Assembly (NCBI GenBank): GCA_902789505.1
Contig: CADAOO010000006.1
Span: 1 to 41,515 of the forward strand
Length of the DNA stretch: 41,515 nucleotides
From: an uncultured Methanobrevibacter sp.
GTDB taxonomy: Archaea > Methanobacteriota > Methanobacteria > Methanobacteriales > Methanobacteriaceae
Direction of reading: 5' to 3'
Position numbers and translations under genes: made by a program. How positions within the stretch are numbered: position 1 is the stretch's first letter; the number at the start of each line of letters is the position of its first letter. Shown here one piece after another: positions 2,436 through 19,900 of the stretch. The notes beneath the pieces are model-generated. The model saw only the letters and a program-made list of their open reading frames with translations. It ran no database searches and was not told where the DNA came from.

Positions 2436-3383
2436 ATGGCAAATATTCCAAAATTAAAAAGAGGAGTTTTGGATAGCATTACTGATGCTATTGGAAACAC
2501 TCCAATTGTAAGATTAAATAATTTAACTGAAGGATTAGACGCAGAAGTAGATGTTAAAATTGAATCATTCAACCCGACCGGCAGTGTCAAAGACCGTGTT
2601 GCAGTTGCAATGATCGAGGATGCAGAAGAAAAAGGTTTACTTAAGCCGGGCGCTACAATCATTGAACCGACCAGTGGAAACACAGGTATCGGACTTGCAT
2701 TTGCCGCAGCTGCTAAAGGTTACAAATTAATTTTAACCATGCCTGAAACCATGTCTGTTGAAAGAAGGAAATTCTTAAGTGTTTTAGGTGCGGAATTAGT
2801 TTTAACTCCCGGTGCTGATGGGATGGGTGGAGCTATTGCAAAAGCTAATGAATTGCAGGAAAACACTCCTGATTCAATTATTTTAGGTCAATTCGACAAC
2901 CCTGCAAATGTAAAAATCCACTCTGAAACTACTGCTCAGGAAATTTTAAGGGACACTGAAGGAAATGTTGATATTGTAATCGGAGGTGTAGGTACCGGCG
3001 GAACAATTACCGGAATAGGTAAAGTATTAAAAGAAGAGGTTCCAGGTGTAAAGATTGTTGCAGTGGAGCCTAAAGACTCTCAAACCTTAGGTAAAGGCGA
3101 AAAAGGACCTCACAAAATCCAGGGTATCGGTGCAGGTTTTGTCCCATCCATTTATGATGAAAGTGTGATTGATGAGATTATCCCGGTTGCAAACGAGGAT
3201 GCCGGAAACACTTTGTTGGCCCTTGCTAAAAAAGAAGGTATATTTTCAGGTATTTCATCTGGTGCAGCAACTTGGGCAGCGTTAGATTTAGCTAAAAAAG
3301 AAGAAAATAAAGGTAAAAGAATAATAGCAATCTTACCGGACAATGGTGAAAGATATCTCTCTGTTGATTGGTTATTTGAATAA
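2436..3383 (+). CDS. cysK: Cysteine synthase (O-acetylserine sulfhydrylase)
   Basis: A 315-residue PLP enzyme that makes cysteine from O-acetylserine and sulfide. The PLP lysine is K52 in NPTGSVKDR; the substrate loop EPTSGNTG, the phosphate-binding GVGTGGTITG and the C-terminal SSGAA and PDNGERY motifs are all present, at the usual CysK/CysM length. AGGAG lies 8 nt before the ATG. The serine acetyltransferase gene follows 59 nt downstream with its own promoter-like site, so both steps of the O-acetylserine route sit together. The promoter shares an 18-mer and palindromes with metY, implying common control by sulfur or cysteine supply (inference). Confidence 0.95.
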   Translation: MANIPKLKRGVLDSITDAIGNTPIVRLNNLTEGLDAEVDVKIESFNPTGSVKDRVAVAMIEDAEEKGLLKPGATIIEPTSGNTGIGLAFAAAAKGYKLILTMPETMSVERRKFLSVLGAELVLTPGADGMGGAIAKANELQENTPDSIILGQFDNPANVKIHSETTAQEILRDTEGNVDIVIGGVGTGGTITGIGKVLKEEVPGVKIVAVEPKDSQTLGKGEKGPHKIQGIGAGFVPSIYDESVIDEIIPVANEDAGNTLLALAKKEGIFSGISSGAATWAALDLAKKEENKGKRIIAILPDNGERYLSVDWLFE

Positions 3384-3390
3384 GAATAAC

Positions 3391-3409
3391 TATATATACC
3401 ATATGTTAT
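3391..3409 (+). promoter_or_regulatory. cysE promoter region with ATACC-ATAT-GTTAT site
   Basis: TATATATA at 3391-3398 could be the TATA box. It overlaps ATACCATATGTTAT (3396-3409), a one-mismatch version of the ATAAC-N4-GTTAT palindrome and nearly the same as ATAACATATGTTAT upstream of metY. It lies 33 nt before the cysE start. Confidence 0.5.
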
Positions 3410-3442
3410 ATATTTAATGTATATCAATTTTGAGGTTTATCA

Positions 3443-4159
3443 ATGTTCAAAAATTTAAGGGATGAAATTAAAGCTATTAAAAAGAAAGATCCTGCAGCAA
3501 GGTCTACATTAGAAATTTTTCTATGTTATCCTGGATTTTATGCATTATTATTCCATAGGGTCAGTCATTGGCTCTGGAATCGTTCTTTAAAGCTTTTGGC
3601 CCGTATGAATTCTACTTTAGCAAGATTCCTTACAGGTATTGAAATTCATCCCGGTGCAACATTTGGTAAACGTGTATTTATTGATCATGGAATGGGTGTT
3701 GTTGTTGGTGAAACCGCAATCATTGGTGATGATGTGCTGATTTATCAGGGAGTAATTCTTGGTGGGACAAGTACAGAAAAAACTAAAAGACACCCGACTA
3801 TTGAAAGAGGAGTAATCATAGGTGCCGGCGCTAAGGTGATGGGTAACATTACTATTGGGGAGTACTCTAAAATAGGTACCGGCGCGGTTGTGCTTAAGGA
3901 TGTTCCTCCGGAATCAACCTGTGTTGGAGTTCCAGGACGTATTGTTAAACGTAAAGGTGTTGCTAACAAAGAAGTGGACCTTGACCATGGAAAACTTCCC
4001 GACCCTGTTGCTGAGGCTATTAGAACAATTGAAAAACATCTTCAGGATAACGATAAGCGTTTCGAAATTTTATTCGATAAACATGAAATCTGTTTGACTG
4101 AAGATATTCGGGATGAACAGGAAGAGTTAGAAGATTTATTTAAGGAAAATGGTGATTGA
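3443..4159 (+). CDS. cysE: Serine O-acetyltransferase
   Basis: Transfers acetyl from acetyl-CoA to L-serine, giving the O-acetylserine used by CysK. The 238-residue protein has the short-type CysE N-terminus ([20 protein letters not shown]), then left-handed beta-helix hexapeptide repeats with the signature [19 protein letters not shown] and [14 protein letters not shown], and GVPGR near the helix end. After that comes a charged C-terminal helix of about 70 residues, longer than the minimal CysE. GAGGTTTATCA precedes the ATG. The HTH regulator begins 2 nt after the stop, so the two genes form an operon. Confidence 0.95.
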
Positions 4160-4161
4160 TT

Positions 4162-4536
4162 ATGAAGCCACCTTGTGAAATTGTTGTATGGTATGTAATA
4201 CCTGCTATTAGGTCAGAATTGGCTAAAGAGCTTTTAAATTTGGGCATGAAACAGAAAGATGTTTCTGAGCTTATGGATATTACTCAGCCGGCCGTTTCCC
4301 AGTATATAACTGATAAACGTGGTAGCGGTATCAAACTCAATGACGATGTTCGTCAAATGATTAAAGACTTCGCTCGCCAATTGTCTGAAGGAAAAGCTAC
4401 TAAAGCTGATTTAATTCCAAGAACATGTAAAATATGTAAAAGTGTAAAGACTGTGGATGTTTTAGAACAATTGAATATTGACAAATCCGACCTTGGTGAA
4501 GATTGTCAAACTTGTATGGGATCTGAAGCAGAATAG
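4162..4536 (+). CDS. HTH regulator with a C-terminal four-cysteine site
   Basis: A 124-residue protein with a helix-turn-helix at about 29-53 (MKQKDVSELMDITQPAVSQYI) of the XRE/Fis type, followed by two CxxC pairs (C89/C92 and C115/C118) that could bind zinc or an Fe-S cluster. It resembles the archaeal family of predicted HTH regulators (COG2522-like, from memory). The ATG at 4162 is chosen because GGTGAT (4151-4156) lies 5 nt before it. It starts 2 nt after cysE and precedes tRNA-Cys and cysS, making it a good candidate for the regulator that reads the ATAAC-N4-GTTAT sites in this block. That link is inference. Confidence 0.8.
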   Translation: MKPPCEIVVWYVIPAIRSELAKELLNLGMKQKDVSELMDITQPAVSQYITDKRGSGIKLNDDVRQMIKDFARQLSEGKATKADLIPRTCKICKSVKTVDVLEQLNIDKSDLGEDCQTCMGSEAE

Positions 4537-4537
4537 C

Positions 4538-4589
4538 AAAATATTGGAAAAAATAGTAAACTATTTAAACTATTATTGACCAATATTTT
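4538..4589 (+). terminator. Long hairpin between the HTH gene and tRNA-Cys
   Basis: AAAATATTGG (4538-4547) pairs with CCAATATTTT (4580-4589), and inside it AATAGT (4552-4557) pairs with ACTATT (4569-4574). The tract after it (TATTATAATTTTAATTTT) is T-rich. It probably ends the cysE-HTH message. The same segment must contain the tRNA promoter, so a regulatory role is also possible. Confidence 0.45.
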
Positions 4590-4609
4590 ATTATAATTTT
4601 AATTTTGCT

Positions 4610-4681
4610 GGCAAGTTTACCGAGTGGCTTAGGTGTGTGGCTGCAGACCATAATACGGGGGTTCAAATCCCTCACTTGCCT
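4610..4681 (+). tRNA. tRNA-Cys (anticodon GCA)
   Basis: The cloverleaf closes fully. The acceptor stem is GGCAAGT/ACTTGCC (4610-4616 with 4674-4680), the D stem ACC/GGT, and the anticodon stem TGTGG/CCATA with loop CTGCAGA and anticodon GCA at 4643-4645. The T arm has loop TTCAAAT. The discriminator base is T4681, the U73 identity element of tRNA-Cys. CCA is not encoded and no intron is seen. The gene lies 41 nt before the start of cysS, the enzyme that charges it. Confidence 0.97.
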
Positions 4682-4722
4682 TTATTTTGCTTAACGATTA
4701 TTTTTTTTATGGAGATATTTTT

Positions 4723-6072
4723 ATGGATGTTTATTCTACATTAACTCGTAGTAAAGAGACTTTTGAAACTATAAATAAAAACAGAGTTAATTTATTTGTT
4801 TGCGGTCCAACTGTTTATGATGATGCTCACATTGGACATGGAAGAACTTACATCTCTTTTGATACAATTAAAAGGTATCTGGAATATAAGGGATATGCTG
4901 TATTTTATATTCAAAACATCACTGACATTGATGATAAGATTATAAACAGGTCAAAAGAGAGTGGAATTCCGGCACATGAGTTAGCCCGTAAGTTTGAAAA
5001 ACGATACATTGAAGACATGAACAAATTAAATGTCAATGGAGTCAATTTATTTGCAAGGGCAACCGATCATGTTGATGAAATATTGGATCAGATTCAAAGA
5101 TTAATTGATAAGGGATTTGCTTATGAAACTGAAGACGGAGTCTATTTCGAAATAGACAAATTCCCGGAATTCGGCAAGCTGTCCAACAGAAATGTTGAGG
5201 AATTGGAATCCCACAGGGACATAGCTGAAACCACTAAAAGGAATCCTCAGGACTTTGCGCTCTGGAAAAAACGTGTCGGTGTCGATGAGCCTGTCTGGCC
5301 ATCCCCATGGGGTGACGGAAGACCTGGATGGCATATTGAAGACACTGCCATTACAGAATACTACTTCGGACCTCAATATGACGCTCACGGAGGCGGGCTT
5401 GATTTGATTTTCCCACACCACGAAGCTGAAATCACACAGATGGAAGCCGTAAGCGGAAAAGCTCCAATGGTAAAATTCTGGTTGCACACAGGATTTTTAA
5501 ATGTAAACGGGGAAAAAATGTCAAAATCACTTAATAACTTCATTACTATTCGTGATTTGCTGAAAGACTATGAACCTGAAACTTTCAGATTCTTTGTATT
5601 GTCAACTCACTACAGAAGCCCTATTGACTTTTCAAAGGATTCACTTCACCAGTCCGAAAAAAGTCTGGATAGAATCAGAAAGTACTATGAGCTTTTGAAT
5701 GTTGAGGTAACAGAAGATTTTGATTCTGATTATGAAGTTCTGGACAAATGGGCAGGTGAATTCTTTGACAGTATGGATGATGACTTCAACACCCCAAAGG
5801 CTATTGCAGCTATTTTCGGATTGATTAATGATTCCAAAAATGAATTGGACGGATTATCCGATGAGGATAAGGTAGCTATTAAGGCATTCCTGGACGATGC
5901 AAGCCATATATTCGGCGTCAGCTTCGAAGCTGAAGAGGTCAGTGCAGGTTCAGACGATTTGCTTGATTTGATTTCTGAGGTAAGGTCAGAGCTAAGGGCC
6001 AACAAGCAATATGACTTGTCTGATAAGATAAGAAGTAACCTTCAGGATTTAGGTTATGAAATAAACGATTAA
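4723..6072 (+). CDS. cysS: Cysteinyl-tRNA synthetase
   Basis: Charges tRNA-Cys with cysteine. The 449-residue class I synthetase has HIGH at 36-39, GEKMSKSLNN as the KMSKS loop, and the zinc-site residue C27 in CGPTVYD. The usual second zinc cysteine (GWHIEC in the E. coli enzyme) is aspartate here, D207 in GWHIEDTA, while the HHE residues at 232-234 are kept. GGAGAT (4711-4716) precedes the ATG at 4723; an upstream ATG at 4687 would add a low-complexity leader and is rejected. No promoter is visible between the tRNA and this gene, so it may be read from the tRNA promoter. A strong hairpin overlaps its stop codon. Confidence 0.97.
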   Translation: MDVYSTLTRSKETFETINKNRVNLFVCGPTVYDDAHIGHGRTYISFDTIKRYLEYKGYAVFYIQNITDIDDKIINRSKESGIPAHELARKFEKRYIEDMNKLNVNGVNLFARATDHVDEILDQIQRLIDKGFAYETEDGVYFEIDKFPEFGKLSNRNVEELESHRDIAETTKRNPQDFALWKKRVGVDEPVWPSPWGDGRPGWHIEDTAITEYYFGPQYDAHGGGLDLIFPHHEAEITQMEAVSGKAPMVKFWLHTGFLNVNGEKMSKSLNNFITIRDLLKDYEPETFRFFVLSTHYRSPIDFSKDSLHQSEKSLDRIRKYYELLNVEVTEDFDSDYEVLDKWAGEFFDSMDDDFNTPKAIAAIFGLINDSKNELDGLSDEDKVAIKAFLDDASHIFGVSFEAEEVSAGSDDLLDLISEVRSELRANKQYDLSDKIRSNLQDLGYEIND

Positions 6073-6902: not shown

Positions 6903-6929
6903 TATTTTTCTTAATCGGATAGGGTAACC

Positions 6930-7066
6930 TTTATATACTAAAATAACATATGTTATATTATATAATGAAAATTATATTTATTTTTGCATTGTGTGTTTTT
7001 AGGCATACCAAAACATTTATATATAAAAAATAACTATTGTTATATAGTGAATATAACACGTGATAT
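6930..7066 (+). promoter_or_regulatory. metY double promoter with three palindromes
   Basis: Two TATA boxes are visible. TTTATATA at 6930-6937 is followed by the perfect palindrome ATAACATATGTTAT (6943-6956). TTTATATA at 7016-7023, within CATACCAAAACATTTATA (7004-7021, identical to the cysK promoter), is followed by ATAACTATTGTTAT (7030-7043) and the variant ATAACACGTGATAT (7053-7066). In both promoters the palindrome begins 13-14 nt after the TATA start, where transcription should begin. Confidence 0.7.
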
Positions 7067-7101
7067 ATTTTACTGAAAATTAAATTTTTAAGGTGATTAT
7101 T

Positions 7102-8397
7102 GTGACAGATAAGAATTATAGATTAGCAACATTAGGTGTACGTGCAGGACAACAACCAGACCCCGCAACTGGGGCTCAAGCAGTTCCTATTTATCAGACT
7201 ACTTCATACGTATTTAAAGATTCAGATGAAGCTGCAAGGAGATTCGCCCTTCAAGAGTTTGGACAGATTTACTCCAGACTTACAAACCCTACCAGTGATG
7301 TATTTGAAGCAAGAATTGCCGCTATAGAAGGCGGTAACTCAGGTATTTCAACATCAAGTGGTCTTGCAGCAATCTCATACGCTATTTTGAATGTAACCGA
7401 ACCTGGAGATAACATTGTCTCAGCAGACAACCTTTACGGAGGAACTTATCAATTGTTTAATTATACCTTCAAGGACTTGGCACGTGAAGTCAAGTTTGTC
7501 AACTCCCAGGATCTTGAAGCCTTTGAAAATGCAATTGATGAAAAAACCAAAGCTATTTATGTTGAATCAGTAGGAAATCCGAAATTGGATGTCCCTGACT
7601 TCGAAGCATTGGCTGAAATTGCACATTCACATGACATTCCATTAATTGTAGACAATACTGTAGGCGTAGGATTAGTAAGACCATTGGATCATGGTGCTGA
7701 TGTGATTGCCGCTTCAGCCACCAAATATGTCGGAGGTCACGGTACTGCAGTCGGAGGATACATTGTCGATTCAGGTAAATTCAATTGGGGAAACGGCAAA
7801 TTCAACAATTTCACAAAGCCTGACCCAAGTTATCACGGATTGGTATTCTGGGATGCATTCGGTGACGTTCCTGAACTCGGAAATCTTGCATTTACCGTAA
7901 GAATAAGGGCAAGACTTTTAAGGGACTTGGGTGCAACTCAGGCACCTGTGCACAGTTTCATTTTCCTGCAGGGACTTGAAAGTTTGGATGTGCGTGTAAA
8001 AAGACATTCTGAAAATGCACTTAAAGTAGCTAAATTTTTGGAAGCCCATCCTAAGGTTAAATGGGTAAACTATCCGGGACTTGAATCCCATCCGACCTAT
8101 GAAGTCAACAAAAAATACCTAAAAGATCATTTTGCAGGTATTTTAGGATTTGGTGTTGAAGGCGGAGAAGAAGCAGGAAGAAAAGTAATTGAAAAGCTGG
8201 AACTGTTCTCAATTCTTGCAAATATCGGAGATGCAAAAAGCCTTGCAATCCACCCTGCAAGTACAACACACCAGCAGCTAAGTCCTGAAGAACAGGAAGC
8301 AACAGGTGTAACTCCGGACTTCATCAGGCTTTCAATTGGTCTTGAAGATGTGGATGACTTAATTGAAGATTTAAGTCAGGCTTTGGATAGTATATGA
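7102..8397 (+). CDS. metY: O-acetylhomoserine sulfhydrylase (aminocarboxypropyltransferase)
   Basis: A 431-residue Cys/Met-metabolism PLP enzyme that makes homocysteine from an activated homoserine and sulfide. The PLP lysine is K208 in [10 protein letters not shown]. The YSRLTNPT motif near the N-terminus and the insertion with [10 protein letters not shown] that marks the long MetY subgroup are present, and the C-terminus has [14 protein letters not shown]. The start is GTG at 7102, 4 nt after AGGTGAT; a GTG at 7093 lies inside that ribosome site. The promoter shares an 18-mer with cysK. Whether O-acetyl- or O-phosphohomoserine is used cannot be told from sequence. Confidence 0.93.
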
Positions 8398-8417
8398 GTA
8401 AAGTAACCCTTTACTCA
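8395..8417 (+). terminator. Hairpin at the metY stop codon
   Basis: TGAGTAAAG (8395-8403) pairs perfectly with CTTTACTCA (8409-8417) around a 5-nt loop. The stop TGA forms the start of the left arm. No T-run follows, so it may protect the 3' end rather than terminate. Confidence 0.5.
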
Positions 8418-8474
8418 CTTAAACTATAAGTAATATGAATTTTATATGTATTTAAAAAAATAGGGGGATAAAGA

Positions 8475-9683
8475 ATGTATTTGGATAACTCAGCAACCAC
8501 ACAAGTAAGTGAGGAAGTTTTTGAAGAAATGAAGCCATATTTCAGAGAAGAGTTCGGAAACCCTTCCACTCTTTATGGAATTGGTCGTGAATCAAAAAAA
8601 GCATTAAATCAGGCTCGCCAAAGGGTAGCTGATGCAATTAATGCAAAACCGGAAGAAATCATTTTCACAGGTGGTGGATCAGAATCTGATAATTTAGCCA
8701 TTAAAGGAATCGCCTTTAAATTAGCAAAAAAAGGTAAGCATATAATCACAACAGATTTTGAACACCCTGCTGTAAAGGAAACTTTATATTTCCTTGAATC
8801 ATTGGATTTTAAAGTTACTTACCTGCCGGTTTATGAAAATGGTGTTATCAAAATTGATGACTTGAAAGAAGCTATAACCGATGAAACAATTTTAATTACC
8901 GTTATGCATGGTAACAATGAGATTGGTACTGTCCAGCCTATTGAAGAAATCGGTAAAATAGCCCGTGAAAAAGGCATTAAATTCCATACCGATGCCGTTC
9001 AGACTTTCGGTAAAATTCCTGTAGATGTTGAGAAATTAAATGTTGACTTACTTTCTTTATCCTCCCATAAAATCAATGGCCCTAAAGGTGTTGGTGCATT
9101 ATATATTAAAAAAGGAACTCGTGTCACTCCGCTTATTCATGGTGGAGGTCAGGAAAGAGGCATTAGGGCAGGTACTGAAAACGTTCCTGGAATCGTCGGA
9201 TTTGGAAAAGCATGCGAGCTGGCTGCAAATCAGCTTGATGAGCATTATGAAAAATTATCTTCAATCAGGGATGAGCTGATTGACAAGGTATTGGGTACAA
9301 TCCCTGAAGCTTATCTGAATGGGGATAAAGAAAAGAGACTTCCAAATCTTGTAAACTTCAGATTTAAAGCTATTGAAGGGGAATCTTTAATTCTCCTATT
9401 GGATGCTAAAGGATATCAGGCTTCAACCGGTTCTGCATGTTCATCCAATAAACTGGAAGCATCTCCAGTTCTGACCGCATTAGGTCTGGACCCTGTTGAT
9501 GTTCATGGATCTTTAAGGATATCCCTATCTCCTGAAAGTGAAAAGTTCGATGTGGATGAATTTGTAGATATTCTTTCAGAGGCCGTTTCAAGATTAAGAC
9601 AGATGTCTCCTCTCTGGAACGATGATTTGGATTATGACGGCGTAATGTGTAAAAAACATGGTGATGACTGTAGGATGTGTTAA
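8475..9683 (+). CDS. nifS: Cysteine desulfurase (NifS/IscS type)
   Basis: Takes sulfur from cysteine as an enzyme-bound persulfide for Fe-S assembly. The 402-residue PLP protein has LDNSATT at the N-terminus, the PLP lysine K199 in SSHKINGPKG, and the persulfide cysteine C322 in STGSACSS on the long flexible loop typical of group I enzymes. The C-terminus carries an extra tail with C392, C399 and C402 (CKKHGDDCRMC) not needed for the fold. The IscU scaffold starts 2 nt downstream. TTTTATATG (8439-8447) could be the promoter TATA box, and AGGGGGAT is the ribosome site. No ATAAC palindrome is seen here. Confidence 0.95.
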   Translation: MYLDNSATTQVSEEVFEEMKPYFREEFGNPSTLYGIGRESKKALNQARQRVADAINAKPEEIIFTGGGSESDNLAIKGIAFKLAKKGKHIITTDFEHPAVKETLYFLESLDFKVTYLPVYENGVIKIDDLKEAITDETILITVMHGNNEIGTVQPIEEIGKIAREKGIKFHTDAVQTFGKIPVDVEKLNVDLLSLSSHKINGPKGVGALYIKKGTRVTPLIHGGGQERGIRAGTENVPGIVGFGKACELAANQLDEHYEKLSSIRDELIDKVLGTIPEAYLNGDKEKRLPNLVNFRFKAIEGESLILLLDAKGYQASTGSACSSNKLEASPVLTALGLDPVDVHGSLRISLSPESEKFDVDEFVDILSEAVSRLRQMSPLWNDDLDYDGVMCKKHGDDCRMC

Positions 9684-9685
9684 TT

Positions 9686-10057
9686 ATGGATTATTCAGAA
9701 AAAGTAATGGATCACTTTGCAAACCCTAGAAACTGTAGAAAAATGGAAGATGCCAATGGTGTCGGAACAGTCGGAAACCCGACATGTGGCGATTTGATGA
9801 CAATTTACATTAAAGTTGAAGATGATGTAATTCAGGATATTTCATTTCAGACATTCGGCTGCGGTGCGGCTATTGCAACAAGCAGCATGATTACTGAAAT
9901 TGCTGTTGGAAAAACCATTGATGAAGCTTTAAAAATTTCCAGAAATGATGTTGCGGAAGAATTGGACGGTCTTCCACCTATCAAGATGCACTGTTCAAAC
10001 TTGGCCGCTGACGGACTTCAGGCAGCAATTGAAAACTATAAGGAAAATAACCAATAG
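9686..10057 (+). CDS. nifU: Fe-S cluster scaffold protein, IscU/NifU N-terminal type
   Basis: A 123-residue scaffold that receives sulfur from the desulfurase encoded 2 nt upstream and builds [2Fe-2S]/[4Fe-4S] clusters. The three cluster cysteines are C34 (NPTCGD), C59 (FGCGAAIA) and C103 (MHCSNLA), with D36 as the conserved aspartate. It lacks the LPPVK chaperone motif of bacterial IscU; LPPIK (96-100) is very close to it. It has none of the extra NifU domains, so it is the short IscU form. The ATG at 9686 follows an AGGATGTG sequence in the end of nifS. Confidence 0.95.
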   Translation: MDYSEKVMDHFANPRNCRKMEDANGVGTVGNPTCGDLMTIYIKVEDDVIQDISFQTFGCGAAIATSSMITEIAVGKTIDEALKISRNDVAEELDGLPPIKMHCSNLAADGLQAAIENYKENNQ

Positions 10058-10110
10058 TTAAATACTTTAAGAGATATAGTAATCATTATCTTATTAAGGA
10101 GATGTTTATT

Positions 10111-10743: not shown

Positions 10744-11514
10744 TTGAAATCTTTTGAATTTTTATCAAAAAACAGAGAGCAAAAACCAAGAAGTAAAGGA
10801 ATTACGATGGTTCTGGACAAGGGTTTAGGCCTGGAAACTGCTGAAAGCTTAATGAACATTTCAGGAGAGTATGTTGACTATCTGAAATTCGGATGGGGAA
10901 CTTCAATTGTACATGAACAGGAAATAATAAAAGCAAAGGTTGAAATGTACAAATCCCATGATATTACCCCATACACAGGAGGGACACTTTTTGAACTTGC
11001 TTACATGAATCATAAGCTGGATGAATTTTTTAAGGAAGCCCGTGAACTGGGATTTCCGGCCATTGAAATATCAGACGGATCTACTAATATTCACCATAAT
11101 GATAAATTGAACGCCATTAAAAGAGCAAAAGATGAAGGATTTGAAGTATTGTCAGAAGTGGGCAAGAAGAATCCGGATTTGGATAAGGAACTCACACTTG
11201 AGGAGCGAATCAGATACATGCAGGAGGAACTGGATGCCGGTTCTTCACTTGTCATAGTTGAAGCAAGGGAAGGCGGAAAGAACATAGGCATTTTTGACAA
11301 GGCGGGAAATGCCAAGGAAGATGAAATCGATATAATTTTGGATAAAATAGATGCAGATAAGATTTTATGGGAAGCTCCAAACAAAGACCAGCAGGTCTTT
11401 TTCATACTCAAGCTTGGAAACACTGTAAACTTAGGCAATGTTTCCAGTGATGACATAACCTCCCTTGAAACCTTAAGACAGGGACTGAGGGGAGATACAG
11501 TTGGCAAAATATAA
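10744..11514 (+). CDS. comA: Phosphosulfolactate synthase
   Basis: Adds sulfite to phosphoenolpyruvate to give phosphosulfolactate, the first step of coenzyme M synthesis in this lineage. The 256-residue TIM-barrel sequence shows family motifs including GLGL, DYLKFGWGTS, YTGGTLFE, IEISDG, VLSEVGKK and IVEAREGG. The start is TTG at 10744, 3 nt after GTGTGAT; no earlier Met is in frame, and the next Met is residue 22. The DUF39/ferredoxin gene starts 50 nt downstream on the same strand, so both ends of the CoM pathway may be represented here. Confidence 0.93.
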   Translation: MKSFEFLSKNREQKPRSKGITMVLDKGLGLETAESLMNISGEYVDYLKFGWGTSIVHEQEIIKAKVEMYKSHDITPYTGGTLFELAYMNHKLDEFFKEARELGFPAIEISDGSTNIHHNDKLNAIKRAKDEGFEVLSEVGKKNPDLDKELTLEERIRYMQEELDAGSSLVIVEAREGGKNIGIFDKAGNAKEDEIDIILDKIDADKILWEAPNKDQQVFFILKLGNTVNLGNVSSDDITSLETLRQGLRGDTVGKI

Positions 11515-11564
11515 TTTGTATTAACTCGGGCGTTGGTAGTTAAAACAATTGGGAGAGTAAAAAA

Positions 11565-12815
11565 TTGACAACTAGAACTATTGGTCAAATCAATCAGAAG
11601 ATTGAAGACGGCGAAGCCAACATATATACGGCGGAAGAATTTAAAAAACTCATAAAAAAGGGTGACACTCCGAGTTTCGATGAAGTGGATGTAGTGACTG
11701 CAGGAACCTGCGGTGTAATGAGCGGTACTGCTGCAATACTGAACTTTATCGTATCGCCTCCGGGAGAATTTATAAGAGCCCGTGAAGTGTTCCTGAATGG
11801 AATACCTGCTTATGCAGGCCCGTGTCCAAACGAGTGGCTGGGATCTTTGGATGTTATTCTGCATGGAACAACACACTCAATAGATGACCCTAACTACGGG
11901 GGAGGATTCCTGCTTAAGGAACTGCTCCAGGGCAATGATGTTGATGTGCGTGTTGAAAGTGTTGAAGGAAAGACAATTGAAAATACAATAACTATTGATG
12001 ATATCGGAAGAGGCCAGATTATAGGGACACGTATGGCGTTTAAAAACTACACTGCCTTTGTCAATTCATATAATGAACCGGTCAGTTCAATATTTTCAGG
12101 AATTCCCCTTGAAGGAAACCTGTCCGGTATGACATTCTCAGGATGCGGCGCATTAAACCCGCTTCAAAACGATATTCCTCATAATGTTATAAAGGACGGA
12201 TGCAGATTCCTGTTGAACGGTGCTGAAGGATATATCTTAGGTGACGGTACACGTTCCAGTGCAGAAAAGCCGAACCTTATGCTGACAGCCGATTATAAGC
12301 AGATGGATTCTTATTATATCGGGGGGTATAAGACCGGTCAGGGCGGAGAGGTTTACGATACCGTGGCAATACCTATACCCGTAATTAACGAGGAGGTTTA
12401 CAATAACCTGCTTGTAACCGATGAAGATGTGAAATTGCCTGTGGCTGAAATCAAAGGGCGCCACTTGCCTGTTGGTGAAACCAACTATTATGAACTGTGG
12501 AAGGACTATGACTTAAGGCCGCAGTATGACCGAACAGCTTGTTCCAAGTGTGATAGGTGTACAGTGGAAAATGTATGTCCTACAAGTGCATTCACCGATG
12601 AAAGGATTAACCCTGCACTTTGCTTCGGCTGCGGATTATGTGCCCATTACTGCAGAAATGACGCGTTCAGCATGAACACTGGTGAAGTGGATCTGGAAAT
12701 CAACGGTGAAAACGTAAATATTCCAATCGTATGCAGACAATCAGACAGGCTTAGAGGAAATAAACTGTCCCAAAAACTTAAAAAATTAATTGAATCAAAT
12801 GAGTTTAAATTATAG
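11565..12815 (+). CDS. comF: DUF39 thiol-forming protein fused to two [4Fe-4S] sites (ComF candidate, methanogenesis marker 16)
   Basis: Residues 1-300 are a DUF39 domain, the family of aspartate-semialdehyde sulfurtransferase (homocysteine synthesis). A paralogue has been reported to convert sulfoacetaldehyde to coenzyme M (M. jannaschii MJ1681, from memory). Conserved-looking cysteines are C49 (TCG), C87 (GPCP), C194 (SGCG) and C213. Residues 326-363 are a ferredoxin domain with C326/C329/C332/C338 and C353/C356/C359/C363. Reductive thiolation of an aldehyde needs two electrons, which the fused clusters could deliver. The start is TTG after GGGAGAG. It follows comA and precedes hdrC by 9 nt. 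The CoM role rests on context; homocysteine synthesis is the main alternative. Confidence 0.8.
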   Translation: MTTRTIGQINQKIEDGEANIYTAEEFKKLIKKGDTPSFDEVDVVTAGTCGVMSGTAAILNFIVSPPGEFIRAREVFLNGIPAYAGPCPNEWLGSLDVILHGTTHSIDDPNYGGGFLLKELLQGNDVDVRVESVEGKTIENTITIDDIGRGQIIGTRMAFKNYTAFVNSYNEPVSSIFSGIPLEGNLSGMTFSGCGALNPLQNDIPHNVIKDGCRFLLNGAEGYILGDGTRSSAEKPNLMLTADYKQMDSYYIGGYKTGQGGEVYDTVAIPIPVINEEVYNNLLVTDEDVKLPVAEIKGRHLPVGETNYYELWKDYDLRPQYDRTACSKCDRCTVENVCPTSAFTDERINPALCFGCGLCAHYCRNDAFSMNTGEVDLEINGENVNIPIVCRQSDRLRGNKLSQKLKKLIESNEFKL

Positions 12816-12824
12816 GTGGTTAAT

Positions 12825-13427
12825 ATGACTGCTCAACAGAAGATTACCGATTCCCCAATTGATTTTGCAGAAGACATAATAAGGGATGTCAAAAACTCAA
12901 AGGATGAGGGTGTCCTGAAATGCGTCCAGTGCGGAATGTGTACATCCACATGTCCTGCAGCAAGACATTCCGATTACAATCCTCGTGACATTATTGAACG
13001 GGTTTTAAACGGGGATGTTTCCATAATCGAAGATGACAATATCTGGAACTGCTTTTACTGCTATACCTGCCATAGCGTATGCCCTGTCGGAAACAGCGTA
13101 TGTGAAGTAAATCAGATTCTAAAGCAGTTTGCGGTAGCTAAAGGAATAAGCTATGACAAACTTTATGAGTACATGGGATTTGCGGATTCATATTTTACTG
13201 CTGCAATCGGTGCAATTCCGGAAATATTTTTTGAAGACATTGACCGTGACGTTCCGGGATGGTGGGACTTCAGACAGCATTTGGATGAAATTCGTAGGGA
13301 GCTGGAACTGGACCCTCCACTGATGCCGCCGGAAGAGGTCATTGATGAGGTAAGTACAATTCTGACGATAACAGGTTTTAAGGAAAAAATCGAAAGGATA
13401 AGGGCATCTCAGGAGGAAGAGCAATGA
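12825..13427 (+). CDS. hdrC: Heterodisulfide reductase subunit C-like iron-sulfur protein
   Basis: A 200-residue two-cluster protein with CVQCGMCTSTCPAARH and CFYCYTCHSVCP, each a full [4Fe-4S] ligand set. HdrC carries electrons from HdrA clusters to the HdrB active site. The ATG at 12825 follows AGGTGGT (12814-12820); a GTG at 12816 lies inside that site. It overlaps hdrB by 4 nt (ATGA). The gene lies 9 nt after the DUF39 gene, so it is very likely in the same transcript. It is probably a paralogue rather than the methanogenesis HdrC, judging from its partners' altered motifs and the gene order C-B-A. Confidence 0.9.
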   Translation: MTAQQKITDSPIDFAEDIIRDVKNSKDEGVLKCVQCGMCTSTCPAARHSDYNPRDIIERVLNGDVSIIEDDNIWNCFYCYTCHSVCPVGNSVCEVNQILKQFAVAKGISYDKLYEYMGFADSYFTAAIGAIPEIFFEDIDRDVPGWWDFRQHLDEIRRELELDPPLMPPEEVIDEVSTILTITGFKEKIERIRASQEEEQ

Positions 13428-14365
13428 AAAGTGTTCCGGATAAGGACTTGCTTTTATTCAGAAGCTGTCTTGTAAGTGTAGAGTATCCCGGTGTTGAGGC
13501 ATCAACAAAGTTTGTTTTTGATAAACTGGGAATTGATTATGCAATATCAGAAAAACAGACCTGCTGCACAGGTCTCGGACATTATTCTGATGTGTTCTCT
13601 CAGATTGATACGACAGCTATCGGAGCCCGTAACTTCAAAATAGCCCGTGAAATCGGAAGGCCAAACCTTGTAATGATGTGTGCAACATGCTATGCAATCA
13701 ACAAAAAATCAGTAAAGCTATTGAATAAAAAGGATGATTTGAGAGACCACATCAATCAGCTGTTTGATGAAAACGGACTGGGGCATCTTAAATATGAAAA
13801 GGATGACCTGAAACCGACAGAAAACATTTTCCATGTTGTGGATATTCTATATGGCAAAAAGGATGAAATTAAAAATCATATCAAATATGACCTGAGTGAA
13901 TATAATATAGCTACCCATCACGGATGCCATTACTGTAAAGTGCATTATGAGGATACAATCGGTGGCGTAAGGGATCCGAACATACTTGATGAGCTGATTG
14001 AAGAGTGCGGATGTGAGACAATCGGATGGTATGACCACAAAAGGGCAACCTGCGGAACAGGTTTCAGGCAGAGGTATTCCAATCCTGAACTGTCTTTTAC
14101 TGCAACTGCCGATAAGATGAATGCGATTGCTGATGAGGATGTTGATATACTGGTTCATTTATGTCCGAACTGTCATATCCAGTTTGACAGATATCAGCAT
14201 TTGATATCCGAAAGGGAAGGCAGAAAATTCAGAGCTATTCATTTAAACATTTCGCAATTCATTGCACTTGCAATGGGTGGTGATTTGGATAGGGTAATAG
14301 GTGCAAAGGCACATACAGTTCCAATTGATTCTGTTATTAAGGGGCTTAAGGAGGTTGAAAAATGA
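13424..14365 (+). CDS. hdrB: Heterodisulfide reductase subunit B-like CCG-domain protein, variant second motif
   Basis: A 313-residue protein with two CCG domains. The first is complete: C15, then C47-C48 (x31 apart), then C86/C89, as expected for the proximal noncubane cluster. The second has C168 (HHGCHYC), but where the family has a Cys-Cys pair it has T209-C210 (RATCGTG), followed by C247/C250. One ligand of the distal noncubane cluster is therefore missing, though C171, C195 or C197 could substitute. In HdrB the two clusters split CoM-S-S-CoB, so this variant may act on another disulfide or simply pass electrons. Overlaps hdrC and hdrA by 4 nt each. Confidence 0.88.
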   Translation: MKSVPDKDLLLFRSCLVSVEYPGVEASTKFVFDKLGIDYAISEKQTCCTGLGHYSDVFSQIDTTAIGARNFKIAREIGRPNLVMMCATCYAINKKSVKLLNKKDDLRDHINQLFDENGLGHLKYEKDDLKPTENIFHVVDILYGKKDEIKNHIKYDLSEYNIATHHGCHYCKVHYEDTIGGVRDPNILDELIEECGCETIGWYDHKRATCGTGFRQRYSNPELSFTATADKMNAIADEDVDILVHLCPNCHIQFDRYQHLISEREGRKFRAIHLNISQFIALAMGGDLDRVIGAKAHTVPIDSVIKGLKEVEK

Positions 14366-16671
14366 GGGATGATTTAAAAGTTGGCGTATTTTTATGTGAA
14401 TGTGGAGGAAACATTGCAGATATAATTGATTTGGATAAGGTCAGAGAGGAGCTTGACGTTGAATTCATAGGGCAATTTGAGAATTTATGTTCTCTAAACG
14501 GCCGTAAAATCATTCGTGATGCAATATTTGACCATGATTTGGACCGTGTTGTAGTTGCAGCATGCTCACCGATAAGCCATGAAAAAACATTCCAGGACTA
14601 TGTAAAACCTCTAAATCCATATCTGATGGACATGGCAAACATCAGGGAACAGTGCTCATGGGTGCACGACGATAAGGACAAGGCAACCCACAAGGCCATC
14701 ACATTAATCAACGCTTCAATCGAAAAGGTAAAGCAGTCCGATGCTGTGGATCCGATTTACTGCCAGACTCCTGATGAGGTGGCAGTAATCGGTGGAGGAA
14801 TTGCCGGAATGAATGCAGCGCTTTCCCTTGCAAAACAGGGAACCAAAGTAACCCTTATAGAGCAGTCCCCATCAATCGGAGGGCATATGGCCAAGATAGG
14901 TAAGGTATTCTCACCGGTCAAGATTGCAGAGGAATGCGGAATGTGTCTGCTCAATCCTATTTTAAATGAACTGGTATGGAATGAAAACATTGAAGTGCTG
15001 ACCAACACCAAAGTAATCGAAGCTGAAAGGCGCGCCGGAACATATAACCTGATACTGGAGAAATCCCCAAGATATGTCAATACCGAAAAGTGCATTGCAT
15101 GCGGAAAATGTGCTGATGCCTGTGAAGTGGAAGTTCCAAACGACTGGAATGACAATCTGTCAATGCGTAAGGCCATTTACAGGCCGTTCGGACAGTCCTA
15201 TCCTGAAGCATATGTAATTGATATGGACAACTGTGACAAATGCAGCAGCTGTGTAAAGGCATGTACAATGAAAGCAATTAAACTCAGGGGAAAGCCCGAA
15301 AGGATTCCGCTTCAGGTAGGTTCAATAATTGTAGCAACAGGCCACAAGCTGTTTGACATGGACAAGCGTCCGGAATATGGATACTCCAGATATGATGATG
15401 TGATAACACAATCAGAGCTTGGCCGTATTACAGGTGTAAACGGTCCGACCAAGGGAAAGCTCCTGAAGGCAAATGGAGAGGTACCTAAACGTGTAGTTAT
15501 GATTCAGTGTGTAGGTTCACGTGATGAAAAGCCTGACGGGCACAGGTACTGTTCAAAGATATGCTGTACTGTGGCTCTCAAGAATGCAAATATCATCAAG
15601 CATAAGTATCCTGAAACCGATGTGCTGATATGTTATACTGATATAAGGACTCCGGGAATGTTTGAGAAGTATTACAAGCATACTCAGGAAAATGAAGTAA
15701 GATTCCTGCGTGGAAGACCTGGTGAAGTTGTTAAAAAAGGAGACAATTACATTGTAAGGACTGAAGACACTCTCAATGGGGAATTTGTGGAAATCGAAGC
15801 GGACATGGTTGTACTGTCCACTGCAATGGAACCGTCAGAGGGAACATGTGAAATTGCAGAAATATTGAATGTCGGAACAACAGAAGACGGTTTCATCAAG
15901 GAATCACATCCTAAAATCAAGCCTGTGGCAACGGACGTTCAGGGAATATACGTATGCGGAACAGCCCATGATCCGAAAGACATTACTGATTCAATCATGC
16001 AGGCAACAGCTGCTGCGGCAAAGGTCGGTGAATATAATTATGGGGGTGTGGAAATTGAACCGTTCATAGCCGAAATCGATCAGGAAAAATGTATTCTCTG
16101 CGGTGAATGCATAAAGCGATGCAAATACAAATCCATGAGCATTCAAAACGATGAGCTCTACATAGATCCTATGAGTTGTACAGGATGCGGAAAATGTCTT
16201 GTTGGATGTAACCAGAGGGCAATTCATGTAAACGGTAACATTGACGAGAAAATCCTGGCAACAATCAAGGGAGTGCTGTCCAGAAAGCAGGACGGCGAGC
16301 GTATGATACTGGTATTTCTGGACAATATCGGATACACTGCAGCCGACAACATAGGCGTTAACAGATTGAAATATCCAGAATCAATACATATCATCAAGGT
16401 CATTTCAGTTAACCGTGTAAGTCCGGACCATATTCGCTATGCACTTGAAAACGGTGCAGATGGTGTATTTATCGGGGAATTCCCGGGGGACCTGATGTAT
16501 GATGAGGTGGAACGTAAAATCCAAAGGGTCAAGGACAGGATATCTGAGATGGGAGAAAATCCGGACAGGATTACATTTTCAAAAGTATATATCCCCTATT
16601 TCTCAGGTCTTGCCCGTAAGCTGACAGATTTCGACAGAAAGATTGAAGAGTTGGATGAAGCCGAATTATAG
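14362..16671 (+). CDS. hdrA: HdrA-like flavoprotein fused to a cysteine-less MvhD-like domain
   Basis: HdrA is the FAD electron hub of heterodisulfide reductase. This 769-residue form has the N-terminal CECGGNI region and the VVVAACSP motif, the FAD fingerprint GGGIAG from G144, GGHMAK with ECGMC, and a ferredoxin insertion at C244 and C291. CVGSRDE...YCSKICC and a second ferredoxin pair at C577 and C606 follow. Residues 644-769 align with MvhD (RLKYPESIHIIKVI, NGADGVFIGEFPGD), but the [2Fe-2S] cysteine positions are replaced (LDNIGY for CNWCGY, SVNRV for CSGRV, EFPGDL for CHPGDC). The canonical protein is about 650-660 residues, and MvhD fusion is known in HdrA2 types. Overlaps hdrB by 4 nt. 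Confidence 0.92.
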   Translation: MRDDLKVGVFLCECGGNIADIIDLDKVREELDVEFIGQFENLCSLNGRKIIRDAIFDHDLDRVVVAACSPISHEKTFQDYVKPLNPYLMDMANIREQCSWVHDDKDKATHKAITLINASIEKVKQSDAVDPIYCQTPDEVAVIGGGIAGMNAALSLAKQGTKVTLIEQSPSIGGHMAKIGKVFSPVKIAEECGMCLLNPILNELVWNENIEVLTNTKVIEAERRAGTYNLILEKSPRYVNTEKCIACGKCADACEVEVPNDWNDNLSMRKAIYRPFGQSYPEAYVIDMDNCDKCSSCVKACTMKAIKLRGKPERIPLQVGSIIVATGHKLFDMDKRPEYGYSRYDDVITQSELGRITGVNGPTKGKLLKANGEVPKRVVMIQCVGSRDEKPDGHRYCSKICCTVALKNANIIKHKYPETDVLICYTDIRTPGMFEKYYKHTQENEVRFLRGRPGEVVKKGDNYIVRTEDTLNGEFVEIEADMVVLSTAMEPSEGTCEIAEILNVGTTEDGFIKESHPKIKPVATDVQGIYVCGTAHDPKDITDSIMQATAAAAKVGEYNYGGVEIEPFIAEIDQEKCILCGECIKRCKYKSMSIQNDELYIDPMSCTGCGKCLVGCNQRAIHVNGNIDEKILATIKGVLSRKQDGERMILVFLDNIGYTAADNIGVNRLKYPESIHIIKVISVNRVSPDHIRYALENGADGVFIGEFPGDLMYDEVERKIQRVKDRISEMGENPDRITFSKVYIPYFSGLARKLTDFDRKIEELDEAEL

Positions 16672-16690
16672 CTTCATTTTTACTTTTTTT
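16655..16690 (+). terminator. Terminator of the com-hdr operon
   Basis: ATGAAGC (16655-16661) pairs with GCTTCAT (16671-16677) around a 9-nt loop, followed by TTTTACTTTTTTTTT. The stop codon of hdrA lies in the loop. The remaining gap to 16935 is very AT-rich, with possible promoter TGTATAAAAT at 16887-16896 and ribosome site AGGGTGA before the next gene. Confidence 0.7.
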
Positions 16691-16935
16691 TTAAGATTTT
16701 TAGGAATTTTTTTCTTTAAATTGATATGATATATTTTAGACAATAAACATATTTCTTCATGTATAATTTTTAATTTCGTAAACTATGGGATAATTTTATA
16801 TAATTTTCATATTAAAATAATAATTATATTATCAATTATACTTGATTTTTTTTATTATATTTTTGATAATTTAGAGTTAGTTCATATGTATAAAATCATT
16901 GGATTAACTTGTAATTAAATAAAACAGGGTGAATT

Positions 16936-19900
16936 ATGCGAAGTAATAATTTTATTTACGTATTTATTCTTCTCTTGTTTTTAGTGGGAATCTCATGTGT
17001 TTCTGCTGAAAACACAGATGATGTAAATTACTTATCAACCGATGATTCAGTTGAGGTAATTTCTGTAGATGAAAATAATGTGCTGGCTGATTCGGCAACT
17101 TCAACAATTGTTTACAATTGGACTGAACTGGGTAGTGCAGTATCTAAGGACAAAAACTTTGAAACAGTCTATCTTGGAGCTAATATCATTCCAGGGGAGC
17201 AGATTAAAATCGATCGCAATGTGACAATTATTGGTTCTGCTGATACGTATATTGGTGGGGGTAATTCAACTGATCCGGTAAGTTATAGTGCGATTCCAAT
17301 TTATTCTAATGAAAATGGGTTGTCAATTACCTTGAAGGATATTCGTTTCCAAAACAGTAAGGGTAATATCCTTATGCAGTTTAGTGGAAATGGAACTTAT
17401 GTTATTGATAACTGTTCGTTTGTAAATGTGAATGCAACTGGAAGTCATCAGGCTGTTGTGTATTTGAATTTGGGTTATATGGACATTTTAAACTGTACAT
17501 TTGAAAACTGTACTACAAGTTATGGTGCGGTAAGTAACTATAATGAAAGAAGTGTAAAGAATGTTCATATGACTGTTAGGGACACTACTTTTAAGAAGAA
17601 TCATGCTACTACTGAGCCGGGTTGTATCAACAACTGTGGGCAGTTGGAAGTTTATGATTCGACTTTTGAAGAGAATTCAGCTGCATGGTGGGCAGGAGCA
17701 ATCCACACTCATTACAATGCGGAAACTACTATTGTCGGTTCAAATTTCATAGGCAATGCTGCAAAATCTTCATACAATGGTGGTGCGTTGTATACTTATG
17801 GTACTTTAACTGTAATCGATTCCAATTTCACTGGAAATCGTGCACCTAATGGTGGGGCAATTGCCGGAATGAATTATATGAGTAGGGCGTCTGTTTCATT
17901 GAAGAACTGTGAATTTAGAAACAACACTGCTTCTGGTAGTGGAGGTGCAGTATTGTTCCCTGGTGCTCAGTTTGTTGTTGAAGATTCAAGATTTTATGAT
18001 AATGTGGCTGGAGGAAGTGGTGGTGCTCTTTCTATAAGTGCTGCTGTTTCAAATATTACCAACTGTGAATTTAGATCCAATAGGGCTCATAATGCTCAGA
18101 ACAATAGTAAAGGTGGTGCTCTTAATTTTGCTTCTACTGATGGCAGTCTTGTGGGATGTGTTTTTGAAGATTGTTCTTCAGATAATGGTGGTTCTGTATA
18201 TTGGGCTAATGATGATGGTGTTATGTCTGGCTGCAGTTTTGTGAATTCACATGCTGATAACAATGGTGGTGCTGTCTATTGGGCTGGTGATAATGGTCTT
18301 GTTGAGAAATCCAGTTTTGAAAAGTGTAGTGCTGATAACTATGGTGGAGGAATCTATTTCGAAGGTGAAAATTGTACTCTTGCAGATTCAACATTCGGAA
18401 TCAATGACGCATTGGAAGGTCTGAATTGGTATAATGTAGAACCTCTCAAGGTCATTAATGTAACCACACTTAAAATACAAACAGCCATCAGTGCTCCTGA
18501 TGTAAACATTATCTATGGCAACACTGCAAACTTGACTGTAACCTTAATGGATGAAAACAATACTGCTTTGGCAGGTGAAAACATCACAGTATCTTTCAAC
18601 AATAACATCTATAATGGAAGCACTGATGAAAACGGTCAAGTTATAATTCCTATTCCGTCCAATCTGATTCCTGATGTTTACATTGCAAACATATCATACA
18701 ACGGGACCGAAAAATACGATTCATCAAAAACTACCTCTGAAGTAACCATAAACAAGATCAGTACAGCTTTAACTGCTGCTGATGTTGTAACTGTTTACAA
18801 CAGTGGTGTAAAACTAATTGCTGTCTTGAATGATGAAAACGGAAGTGTTATCAGTGGTTCAAAAGTCAAAATTGTCTTAGGTTCTCTTTCAAAGACTTTA
18901 ATTACTGATGCTGATGGTCAGGTGTCACTTTCAATGGATGCTGTTGTTCCGGGTAATTATACTGCTGAAATTGAGTTTGCAGGTGATGCAATCTACGGTG
19001 AATCAAGTACATCCGCAAAAGTTACAATTGACAAGTTGGATAGCACATTATCATCTTCGGATGTTGTAACTGTTTACAATAGTGGTGACAAGCTGGTTGC
19101 AGTATTAATGGATGAAAATGGTGATGTGATTGGTGGTGCACAGGTTAAAATTGTTTTAGGTTCTCTTTCAAAGACTTTAATTACTGATGCTGATGGTCAG
19201 GTGTCACTTTCAATGGATGCTGTTGTTCCGGGTAATTATACTGCTGAAATTGAATTTGCAGGTGATGAAATTTATAATCCAGCAACTGCAATAGCTAAGG
19301 TTTCCATTTCTAAACTTGATAGTACATTAAATACAAACGACATTGTAACCATTTACAATAATGGTGATAAACTGGTCGCTACTTTAGAAGATGGAAATGG
19401 CAGTGCGATTGGTGGCATGCAAGTCAAAATTTCACTTGGTGCGATTACCAAGACTCTAATAACTGACGCAAATGGCCAAATTTCACTTTCTACCGACGGT
19501 CTTCTTCCAGACAACTACTCTGCAGAAATCGTATTTGCAGGGGACGAAATATATAATCATGCAAACACAACTGCAAAAGTCACAATCGACAAGCTCAACA
19601 GCACATTGACATCTTCAGATGTTATTACTGTTTATAACAGTGGTGACAAGCTGGTTGCCTCATTAATGGATGGTAATGGCAGTGCCATCAGTGGTGCAAA
19701 GGTCAAAATCTTGTTGGACACTATTTCCAAGACTTTAATCACTGATGCAAATGGTCAGGTGTCACTCACAACAAGTGCACTTCTTCCAGGCAACTACTCT
19801 GCAGAAATCGTATTTGCAGGGGACGAAATATATGATTATTCAAGTACAAATGTCAATGTTGTTATAAGCAAACTCAATAGCATTTTAAATGCGACAGATG

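Follow-up and report, generated by a model that had tools for sequence, protein, structure and literature searches.

A comA-comF-hdrCBA operon in Methanobrevibacter points to a non-bifurcating heterodisulfide reductase-type complex tied to coenzyme M synthesis

ComF, also named MMP16, is the main coenzyme M (CoM) synthase of Methanosarcina acetivorans, and the formation of CoM from sulfoacetaldehyde is backed by genetic evidence in M. acetivorans and by MJ1681 in E. coli, as told in PMC12068725 (this and the other PMC articles are cited from excerpts). The sulfur species used by ComF, and hence the number of electrons consumed, is left open there, and a term search of the PMC12068725 text does not return "electron donor". 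Heterodisulfide reductase (Hdr) complexes have been placed elsewhere in metabolism. HdrA1B1C1 is regarded as part of methylotrophic energy metabolism (PMC6019823, PMC9963511), a proposed role that needs validation according to PMC6019823, and residues Glu356 and Lys409 of HdrA are taken as marks of electron bifurcation (PMC12054007). A gene insertion in Methanobrevibacter olleyae YLM1, absent from M. ruminantium M1, has been tied to the ability to make CoM (PMC4824261). Here we analyze a 41,515-nucleotide stretch (hereinafter designated the window) of contig CADAOO010000006.1, from an 84%-complete draft genome of an uncultured Methanobrevibacter sp., in which comA and comF share an operon with an HdrCBA set of the HdrA1B1C1 type (hereinafter designated Hdr1). 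We propose, with a probability of about 0.52, that Hdr1 is a ferredoxin-fed, non-bifurcating reductase dedicated to CoM synthesis that most likely passes electrons to ComF.

Linkage, co-absence and transfer of comF and Hdr1

The genes comA, comF, hdrC, hdrB and hdrA form a single tight operon. As the initial annotation had described, they lie on one strand with gaps of 50 nt (comA-comF) and 9 nt (comF-hdrC) followed by two 4-nt overlaps (hdrC-hdrB and hdrB-hdrA), and all five proteins exceed the curated cut-offs of their own NCBIfam models. A scan based on an HdrB alignment found 137 relatives, of which 80 named records were kept, and ComF is encoded directly 5' of HdrC in 40 of these. The median spacings in those 40 records are 13.5 (38 records), 9, –4 and –4 nt, and the tight operon is therefore not a product of chance. 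The start of hdrC is placed at the ATG at 12825, which follows a ribosome-binding-like GGTGG, with the GTG at 12816 as a possible alternative. Of the single terminator claimed after hdrA, the T-rich tracts are present (about 16675-16716), whereas the hairpin sought there was not found.

To survey relatives we used 150 Methanobacteriales genomes, keeping 110 HdrA rows of the NF041891 type (at least 665 bits; canonical rows of at most 648.6 bits and a diverged third HdrA, G138:C4 at 850.9 bits, were dropped) and 133 MMP16 rows (at least 160.8 bits, partial matches at contig ends included; rows resembling L-aspartate semialdehyde sulfurtransferase (L-ASST), at most 149.5 bits, were dropped). In the Methanobrevibacter-type genera, designated g1, g3, g6 and g9, 71 genomes encode ComF and 69 of these also encode an Hdr1-type HdrA. 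The two genes are adjacent and co-directional in 67 of the 69, hdrA lying at a contig end in the other two (G095 and G100), which rules out chance adjacency. Conversely, 20 of the 21 ComF-lacking genomes of these genera lack Hdr1 HdrA, the exception being G031, which is 64% complete. Restricting the table to high-quality genomes (completeness of at least 90%, contamination of at most 5%) leaves 42 with both genes, 8 with neither and none discordant in either direction. Over the whole sample ComA was not found in 22 and MMP16 not in 27 of the 150 genomes, some of them incomplete drafts; two unlisted ComA-lacking genomes were taken as G039 and G121, these being missing from the match table. The counts conflict with a statement in PMC13135261 that all species make CoM classically except M. 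ruminantium and one Methanorudis metagenome-assembled genome.

Hdr1 is not the sole Hdr of these organisms. Of 20 genomes tested, 19 encode a canonical HdrB (TIGR03288 above cut-off), 7 of these being ComF-lacking, and the one genome without a match is the window's own draft, in which a canonical-type HdrA fragment was found; Hdr1 as the only Hdr copy is thereby ruled out. Since the 7 ComF-lacking genomes retain canonical HdrB, Hdr1 seems not to be needed where CoM is not synthesized, and organisms that seemingly do not make CoM appear to run methanogenesis without it. The initial annotation had regarded this Hdr as a paralogous set, as proves to be the case, and had named an unconserved neighbourhood or a single hdrABC copy as what would speak against its proposal; we find the neighbourhood conserved in relatives and canonical HdrB present in the relatives tested.

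The cassette also appears to have a history of its own. In a tree of EF-2 the g9 rows group together at 100/99, joined by one row labelled g1 (G073), a probable contaminant. In a tree of joined ComA, ComF, HdrC, HdrB and HdrA, by contrast, the g9 genomes G025, G035 and G037 (G035 being absent from the EF-2 tree) fall within g1, and a single clade of all four g9 rows is rejected (p-AU 2e-5). Trees of single proteins agree in direction, less forcefully: g9 monophyly is not rejected by ComA (p-AU 0.177), and p-AU is 0.036 for HdrA and 0.0046 for ComE (three g9 rows). Because the joined-cassette tree conflicts with EF-2, the trees indicate that comA-comF-hdrCBA was transferred between genera as a unit, which fits the presence of the insertion in YLM1 and its absence from M. 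ruminantium M1 (PMC4824261); two transfers into g9 rather than one are weakly favoured (p-AU 0.03). ComF-lacking rows fall on the EF-2 tree in g6 (G012), in g1 (G103) and once or more in g9, so the number of independent ComF losses is partly resolved. EF-2 rows of G073 and G090 look contaminant or divergent and nothing is drawn from either, and 4 of 31 genomes gave no EF-2 at threshold, among them the ComF-lacking G063, G096 and G028. Linkage, co-absence and joint transfer together tie Hdr1 to CoM synthesis.

Residues of ComF and Hdr1 and their surroundings in the window

The second protein of the operon carries a COG1900 (DUF39) domain, the PF01837 match covering 1-349 of the 349 model positions, and a matched Fer4 domain with cluster cysteines at 326-338 and 353-363; the fusion of a DUF39 protein to two [4Fe-4S] sites, as first annotated, is thus correct. 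The eight cluster cysteines are invariant among 24 aligned rows. The TIGR03287 score above cut-off and the combination of COG1900 with a C-terminal 2[4Fe-4S] ferredoxin domain both identify it as MMP16, and a Pfam search of the window protein for a CBS domain, which would mark L-ASST, gave no match. It is the only COG1900 protein found in the 84%-complete genome. A role in homocysteine synthesis is less likely, given that this one COG1900 protein belongs to the MMP16 branch and that an O-acetylhomoserine sulfhydrylase is encoded upstream. The structure model of ComF was poor (pLDDT 57) and was not used.

The residue numbers for HdrA refer to 5odc_A. We take this to be the M. thermolithotrophicus protein on which PMC12054007 bases its numbering, and it has the expected E at position 356 and K at 409. 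The equivalent of the bifurcation Glu356 is Gly or Ala in all 116 Hdr1 HdrA rows, and Lys409 is retained in all 116. Window HdrA has Gly354 at the glutamate position and keeps Lys407 and the FAD and [4Fe-4S] motifs; the canonical HdrA from the same genome retains the glutamate. The C-terminal FlpD/MvhD-like domain (residues 649-764) contains no cysteine, whereas FlpD proteins of the same genome have six. None of the 17 HdrA rows compared retains the first MvhD cysteines, rows of g4, g15 and g16 keeping one cysteine near the last motif, and across the 116 rows the last 120 residues hold no cysteine in 80, one in 32, two in 3 and three in 1. In HdrB the first CCG motif is intact. The second is altered to [T/H/S]CG in 128 of 129 rows (TCG in the window; one row gave no match), whereas canonical HdrB rows have CCG there. 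An additional cysteine (CHYC) lies near the altered motif in the window HdrB, as in 110 of 111 Methanobacteriales rows, the diverged L076 left out. All 16 Methanosarcinaceae rows have CHYY in its place, and the lost ligand may thus have been replaced in one group only. Some genomes are counted twice in the 116-row, 129-row and CHYC/CHYY counts through overlapping unnamed and named records. The HdrB structure model is fair (84.6) with low confidence around the altered motif, and no cluster geometry is drawn from it.

Profile scores agree with this assignment. All three window subunits lie above the HdrA1B1C1-type cut-offs (NF041890, NF041780 and NF041891), and HdrA reaches 755.5 bits against NF040770 (HdrA2, MvhD-fused, type Ia), below its cut-off of 1100. 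Without the glutamate and the MvhD cysteines, and with a broken second CCG motif and an HdrB below the TIGR03288 cut-off, a canonical bifurcating identity for Hdr1 is ruled out by three residue tests. The simplest reading of the sequences is that Hdr1 would form a straight ferredoxin-fed electron path with neither a hydrogenase link nor bifurcation; a separate FlpD may link it to hydrogenase or formate dehydrogenase in trans. The open-access literature yielded no paper that assigns Hdr1 to ComF or notes its lost bifurcation glutamate, and the excerpted text of PMC12054007, a survey of HdrA classes, contains no mention of comA or biosynthesis by term search and no com genes in its Results. ComF, HdrABC and, in one genome announcement (PMC4824261), their co-location are already known separately.

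The operon lies immediately 3' of a cysteine and sulfur island (2436-10476) with cysK, cysE, tRNA-Cys, cysS, O-acetylhomoserine sulfhydrylase, nifS, nifU and desulfoferrodoxin, the sulfhydrylase gene being 2.3 kb upstream of comA (Table 1). On its other side, hdrA is followed by a 1457-aa open reading frame at 16936-21309, an adhesin-like repeat protein as judged by eye. Its place 3' of hdrA is taken in 23 of the 40 named ComF-HdrC records by comE or comD on the opposite strand (within the genes listed).

Table 1 Features of the operon and its upstream context in the window
Feature	Position	Strand	Evidence
cysK, cysE, helix-turn-helix protein, tRNA-Cys, cysS (cysteine island upstream of operon)	2436..6072	+	
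O-acetylhomoserine sulfhydrylase (homocysteine route without COG1900)	7093..8397	+	TIGR01326 631.4 bits (cut-off 495.1)
nifS and nifU (sulfur mobilisation, Fe-S assembly)	8475..10057	+	TIGR03402, TIGR03419 above cut-off
comA, phosphosulfolactate synthase (first CoM-synthesis step, sulfite + phosphoenolpyruvate)	10744..11514	+	TIGR03849 333 bits (cut-off 280); PF02679
comF/MMP16, CoM synthase: COG1900 (DUF39, HcyBio) and 2[4Fe-4S] ferredoxin domain	11565..12815	+	TIGR03287 532.9 bits (cut-off 363.95); PF01837, PF00037; function from PMC12068725 (excerpt)
hdrC of Hdr1 (CoM-linked Hdr), 4Fe-4S dicluster protein	12825..13427	+	NF041890 328.3 bits (cut-off 270)
hdrB of Hdr1	13424..14365	+	NF041780 538.8 bits (cut-off 450); TIGR03288 173.9, below 345.15
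hdrA of Hdr1	14362..16671	+	NF041891 1400.7 bits (cut-off 1300)
T-rich tracts 3' of hdrA, possible archaeal terminator	16672..16720	+	sequence only

Proposed role of Hdr1 and competing explanations

In the proposed scheme the operon would combine the front and back ends of CoM synthesis (ComA and ComF) with a dedicated reductase. Reduced ferredoxin would feed the [4Fe-4S] clusters and FAD of HdrA, and HdrC would then relay the electrons to HdrB, to the ferredoxin domain of ComF or to both. The CoM thiol could there be formed by reduction of a thio-intermediate of sulfoacetaldehyde and sulfide, which takes 2 electrons, or of a persulfide sulfur, which takes 4. We infer the donor, the acceptor and the path, and for ferredoxin the names of the NCBIfam models are what help. 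In favour of the scheme are the conservation of comF with Hdr1, their co-absence and joint transfer, the second comF-hdrCBA units and the linkage of Hdr1 genes to a second ComF clade or to comE/comD (all described below), and the missing bifurcation, hydrogenase-link and second-CCG residues. The physiology of M. acetivorans agrees in part: hdrABC transcripts, which we take to be those of hdrA1C1B1, rise upon deletion of ComF (PMC12068725), and the greater defect of the hdrA1C1B1 mutant on cysteine than with sulfide (PMC9963511) resembles the way in which the ComF mutant depends on sulfide. The initial annotation had cast this Hdr as an electron source for CoM or homocysteine synthesis. The first of these is supported by linkage, co-absence and joint transfer and the second is disfavoured, with electron transfer from Hdr1 to ComF a proposed step; that annotation had passed over the lost bifurcation glutamate, MvhD cysteines and CCG cysteine.

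Several observations weigh against this scheme. The neighbourhood, conserved in 67 of 69 Methanobrevibacter-type genomes, is not universal: 18 of 123 ComF-encoding genomes (13 of 80 of high quality), from Methanothermobacter-like families and others, have no Hdr1 HdrA, so another electron donor for ComF must exist, 18 being an upper figure as G079 and G115 among them do show an Hdr1-type HdrB. The co-absence is confounded by linkage, a single deletion taking both genes, and in one of the 8 ComF-lacking high-quality genomes (G062) the contig stops at comA, leaving 7 solid cases. Elsewhere Hdr1 keeps other company: hdrCBA follows cysS and is not beside comF in Methanosphaera-type loci (8 of 80 named records), follows cysK-cysE in g16 and lies near sufCB in g8 and g11, and the Methanosarcinaceae genes run A-C-B, close to those for an MreA regulator and for a large subunit of the aconitase/isopropylmalate-dehydratase family. 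These varied neighbours, whose classes were judged only after being seen, are suggestive of sulfur or thiol metabolism more widely. Finally, the M. acetivorans hdrA1C1B1 mutant is rescued by CoM plus acetate and not by 1 mM CoM alone, which its authors read as slower heterodisulfide recycling (PMC9963511).

Other arrangements were recorded in the same survey. Four g1 draft genomes, each with a single comA, carry a second comF-hdrCBA unit, which in G059 is an intact tandem copy on one contig and in G054, G058 and G083 sits on short contigs starting within comF, where a strain mixture is possible. A second ComF clade (ComF2) is likewise linked to Hdr1: two g8 genomes have hdrC-hdrB together with ComF2 (in one, a ThiF-family neighbour was tested), a third has hdrC with ComF2 beside a ThiF-family gene, and in g5 hdrCBA adjoins ThiF-ComF2. 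The hdrA gene adjoins comE/comD in one g7 genome and in g10. In the Methanosarcina loci examined Hdr1 is not beside comF, and the Methanosarcinaceae large subunit scores 536-548 bits against the methanogen homoaconitase model, just below its cut-off of 550. An Hdr1-type HdrB (E <= 1e-100) occurs in 14 of 294 sampled genomes of the Methanosarcina phylum, and in one Methanoperedenaceae record Hdr1 is divergently oriented to a taurine/nitrate/sulfonate-type ABC transporter, which itself scores below all named cut-offs shown. Two Methanosarcina genomes (L209 and L210) each hold two MMP16 genes above cut-off, the second with an ABC-type ATPase, a HypB-like GTPase and a small Fe-S protein, resembling the set in the PMC12068725 Fig. 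2 legend. After ComF, thiI (tRNA 4-thiouridine sulfurtransferase) comes next in 5 of 7 tested loci (L045, L081, L085, L089 and L094), TYW1 in L082 and a HAD hydrolase in L080.

Some Hdr1-type sequences depart further from the common form. In L127 and L048 (M. cuticularis type) hdrB-hdrA adjoins hydrogenase genes, of which the large subunit was tested, and the stretch examined shows no clear hdrC. A 1047-aa open reading frame in G064 (L118:4433-7576) contains only HdrA residues 283-768, preceded by about 560 residues matching no reference protein, and may be a fusion, a deletion or an assembly fault. A g15 locus (L076:4421-8517) encodes a third, strongly diverged HdrA/HdrB/HdrC set (HdrA 854.7 bits to NF041891, HdrB 176.9 bits to NF041780), and an HdrB-like stretch with 30 stop codons (G018:C59:64145-64951) is a probable pseudogene.

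The strongest rival, in our view unlikely, casts Hdr1 as an auxiliary ferredoxin:disulfide reductase that maintains the thiol form of CoM by reducing CoM-S-S-CoB or CoM disulfides and does not serve ComF, being co-expressed with CoM synthesis since both set the free CoM pool size. The NCBIfam models are indeed named for ferredoxin:CoB-CoM heterodisulfide reductase, the first CCG site of HdrB is intact, and the M. acetivorans data are interpreted in this way (PMC12068725, PMC9963511). Yet 19 of 20 genomes already encode canonical HdrB, and the second CCG cysteine is gone in 128 of 129 Hdr1 rows; ComF-lacking genomes also need a CoM pool, but 8 of 8 of high quality (one uncertain) are without Hdr1 HdrA.

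Alternatively, Hdr1 might act on the sulfur side, reducing persulfide or polysulfide sulfur from NifS or cysteine to a form used by ComF and other thiol-forming enzymes. NifS/NifU, CysK/CysE, CysRS, SufBC and ThiF recur among its neighbours across genera, and relative to the parent the doubling time of the M. acetivorans hdrA1C1B1 mutant is increased by 19% with sulfide and by 81% with cysteine as sole sulfur source (PMC9963511). We nevertheless consider this quite improbable: ComF-lacking genomes still need cysteine, Fe-S clusters and methionine, but 20 of 21 in the four genera are without Hdr1 HdrA, and the sulfur neighbours vary by genus and form a category chosen after they were seen. Least credible of all is an oxidative Hdr1 producing sulfite for ComA in the manner of the sHdr of sulfur oxidisers: comA, a sulfite user, stands first in the operon and to our knowledge the sulfite source in sulfide-grown methanogens is not settled, but ferredoxin is an energetically unfavourable acceptor for the oxidation of sulfide to sulfite, and in the loci examined from Methanosarcinaceae and of the Methanosphaera type no com gene adjoins Hdr1. 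The sHdr precedent, moreover, is reported to go with lipoate-binding proteins (PMC6067878), none of which is among the neighbours identified, LbpA itself not having been searched for.

The preferred role of Hdr1 as a dedicated reductase for CoM synthesis invites a broader proposal, which we regard as tentative and somewhat doubtful: HdrA1B1C1-type complexes in general, that of Methanosarcina included, might be non-bifurcating biosynthetic Hdrs for the aldehyde-to-thiol step of CoM and coenzyme B (CoB) synthesis and not heterodisulfide reductases of methanogenesis. Homoaconitase acts in CoB synthesis, and the homoaconitase-family neighbour in Methanosarcinaceae might, with similar hesitation, be taken to point to CoB as the com operon in Methanobrevibacter does to CoM. 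At the least, a conserved and jointly transferred operon supplies a candidate electron source for the final step of CoM synthesis, one open to experimental test. If the preferred role holds, Hdr complexes would have a biosynthetic role and the M. acetivorans hdrABC mutant another reading. The Hdr1/com operon would also help to predict which gut methanogens make CoM, which is relevant to the control of rumen methane.

Comparison with known systems

The window ComF belongs to the same family as the described ComF/MMP16 proteins (TIGR03287; MJ1681, MA3299), with the COG1900 and ferredoxin domains and a position beside comA. It differs in sharing one operon with an Hdr, whereas the Fig. 2 legend of PMC12068725 names an ATPase, a Ni-binding GTPase and a COG2000 Fe-S protein as neighbours. 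L-ASST (MA1821-1822), which forms homocysteine, likewise uses COG1900 to convert an aldehyde to a thiol with sulfur and electrons, but the window protein belongs to the MMP16 branch, has no CBS match and is accompanied by no second COG1900 protein found in the draft genome.

Among Hdr complexes, M. acetivorans HdrA1B1C1 (hdrA1C1B1, MA3126-3128; NF041778/NF041780) scores above the NF041780 cut-off, as does the window HdrB, and aligned Methanosarcina loci likewise lack the bifurcation glutamate, the MvhD cysteines and the first cysteine of the second CCG motif. The M. acetivorans-type locus differs in its A-C-B order near mreA and a homoaconitase-family gene, outside any com operon, and Methanosarcinaceae proteins are 44-46% (HdrB) and 37-44% (HdrA) identical to those of the window. 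Canonical HdrABC-MvhADG or formate dehydrogenase complexes (PDB 5odc, 8rvu, 7bkb) resemble Hdr1 in subunit make-up, FAD domain, Lys409 and first CCG motif, and 18 of the 22 cysteines of the genome's canonical HdrA fragment, of the ferredoxin type, align with cysteines in window HdrA. Hdr1 departs from them in lacking the bifurcation glutamate and the MvhD-domain cysteines, in its broken second CCG motif and in its operon with comA-comF. HdrA2B2C2 (type Ia, fused MvhD) has a C-terminal MvhD-like domain as well, that of the window being free of cysteine. A counterpart in gene content is the 10-gene insertion of M. olleyae YLM1 (hdrABC, comADE and MMP16), which holds the same gene set as the window cassette; PMC4824261, in the part cited, lists these genes and gives hdrABC no role, whereas we propose that the complex supplies the electrons for CoM synthesis.

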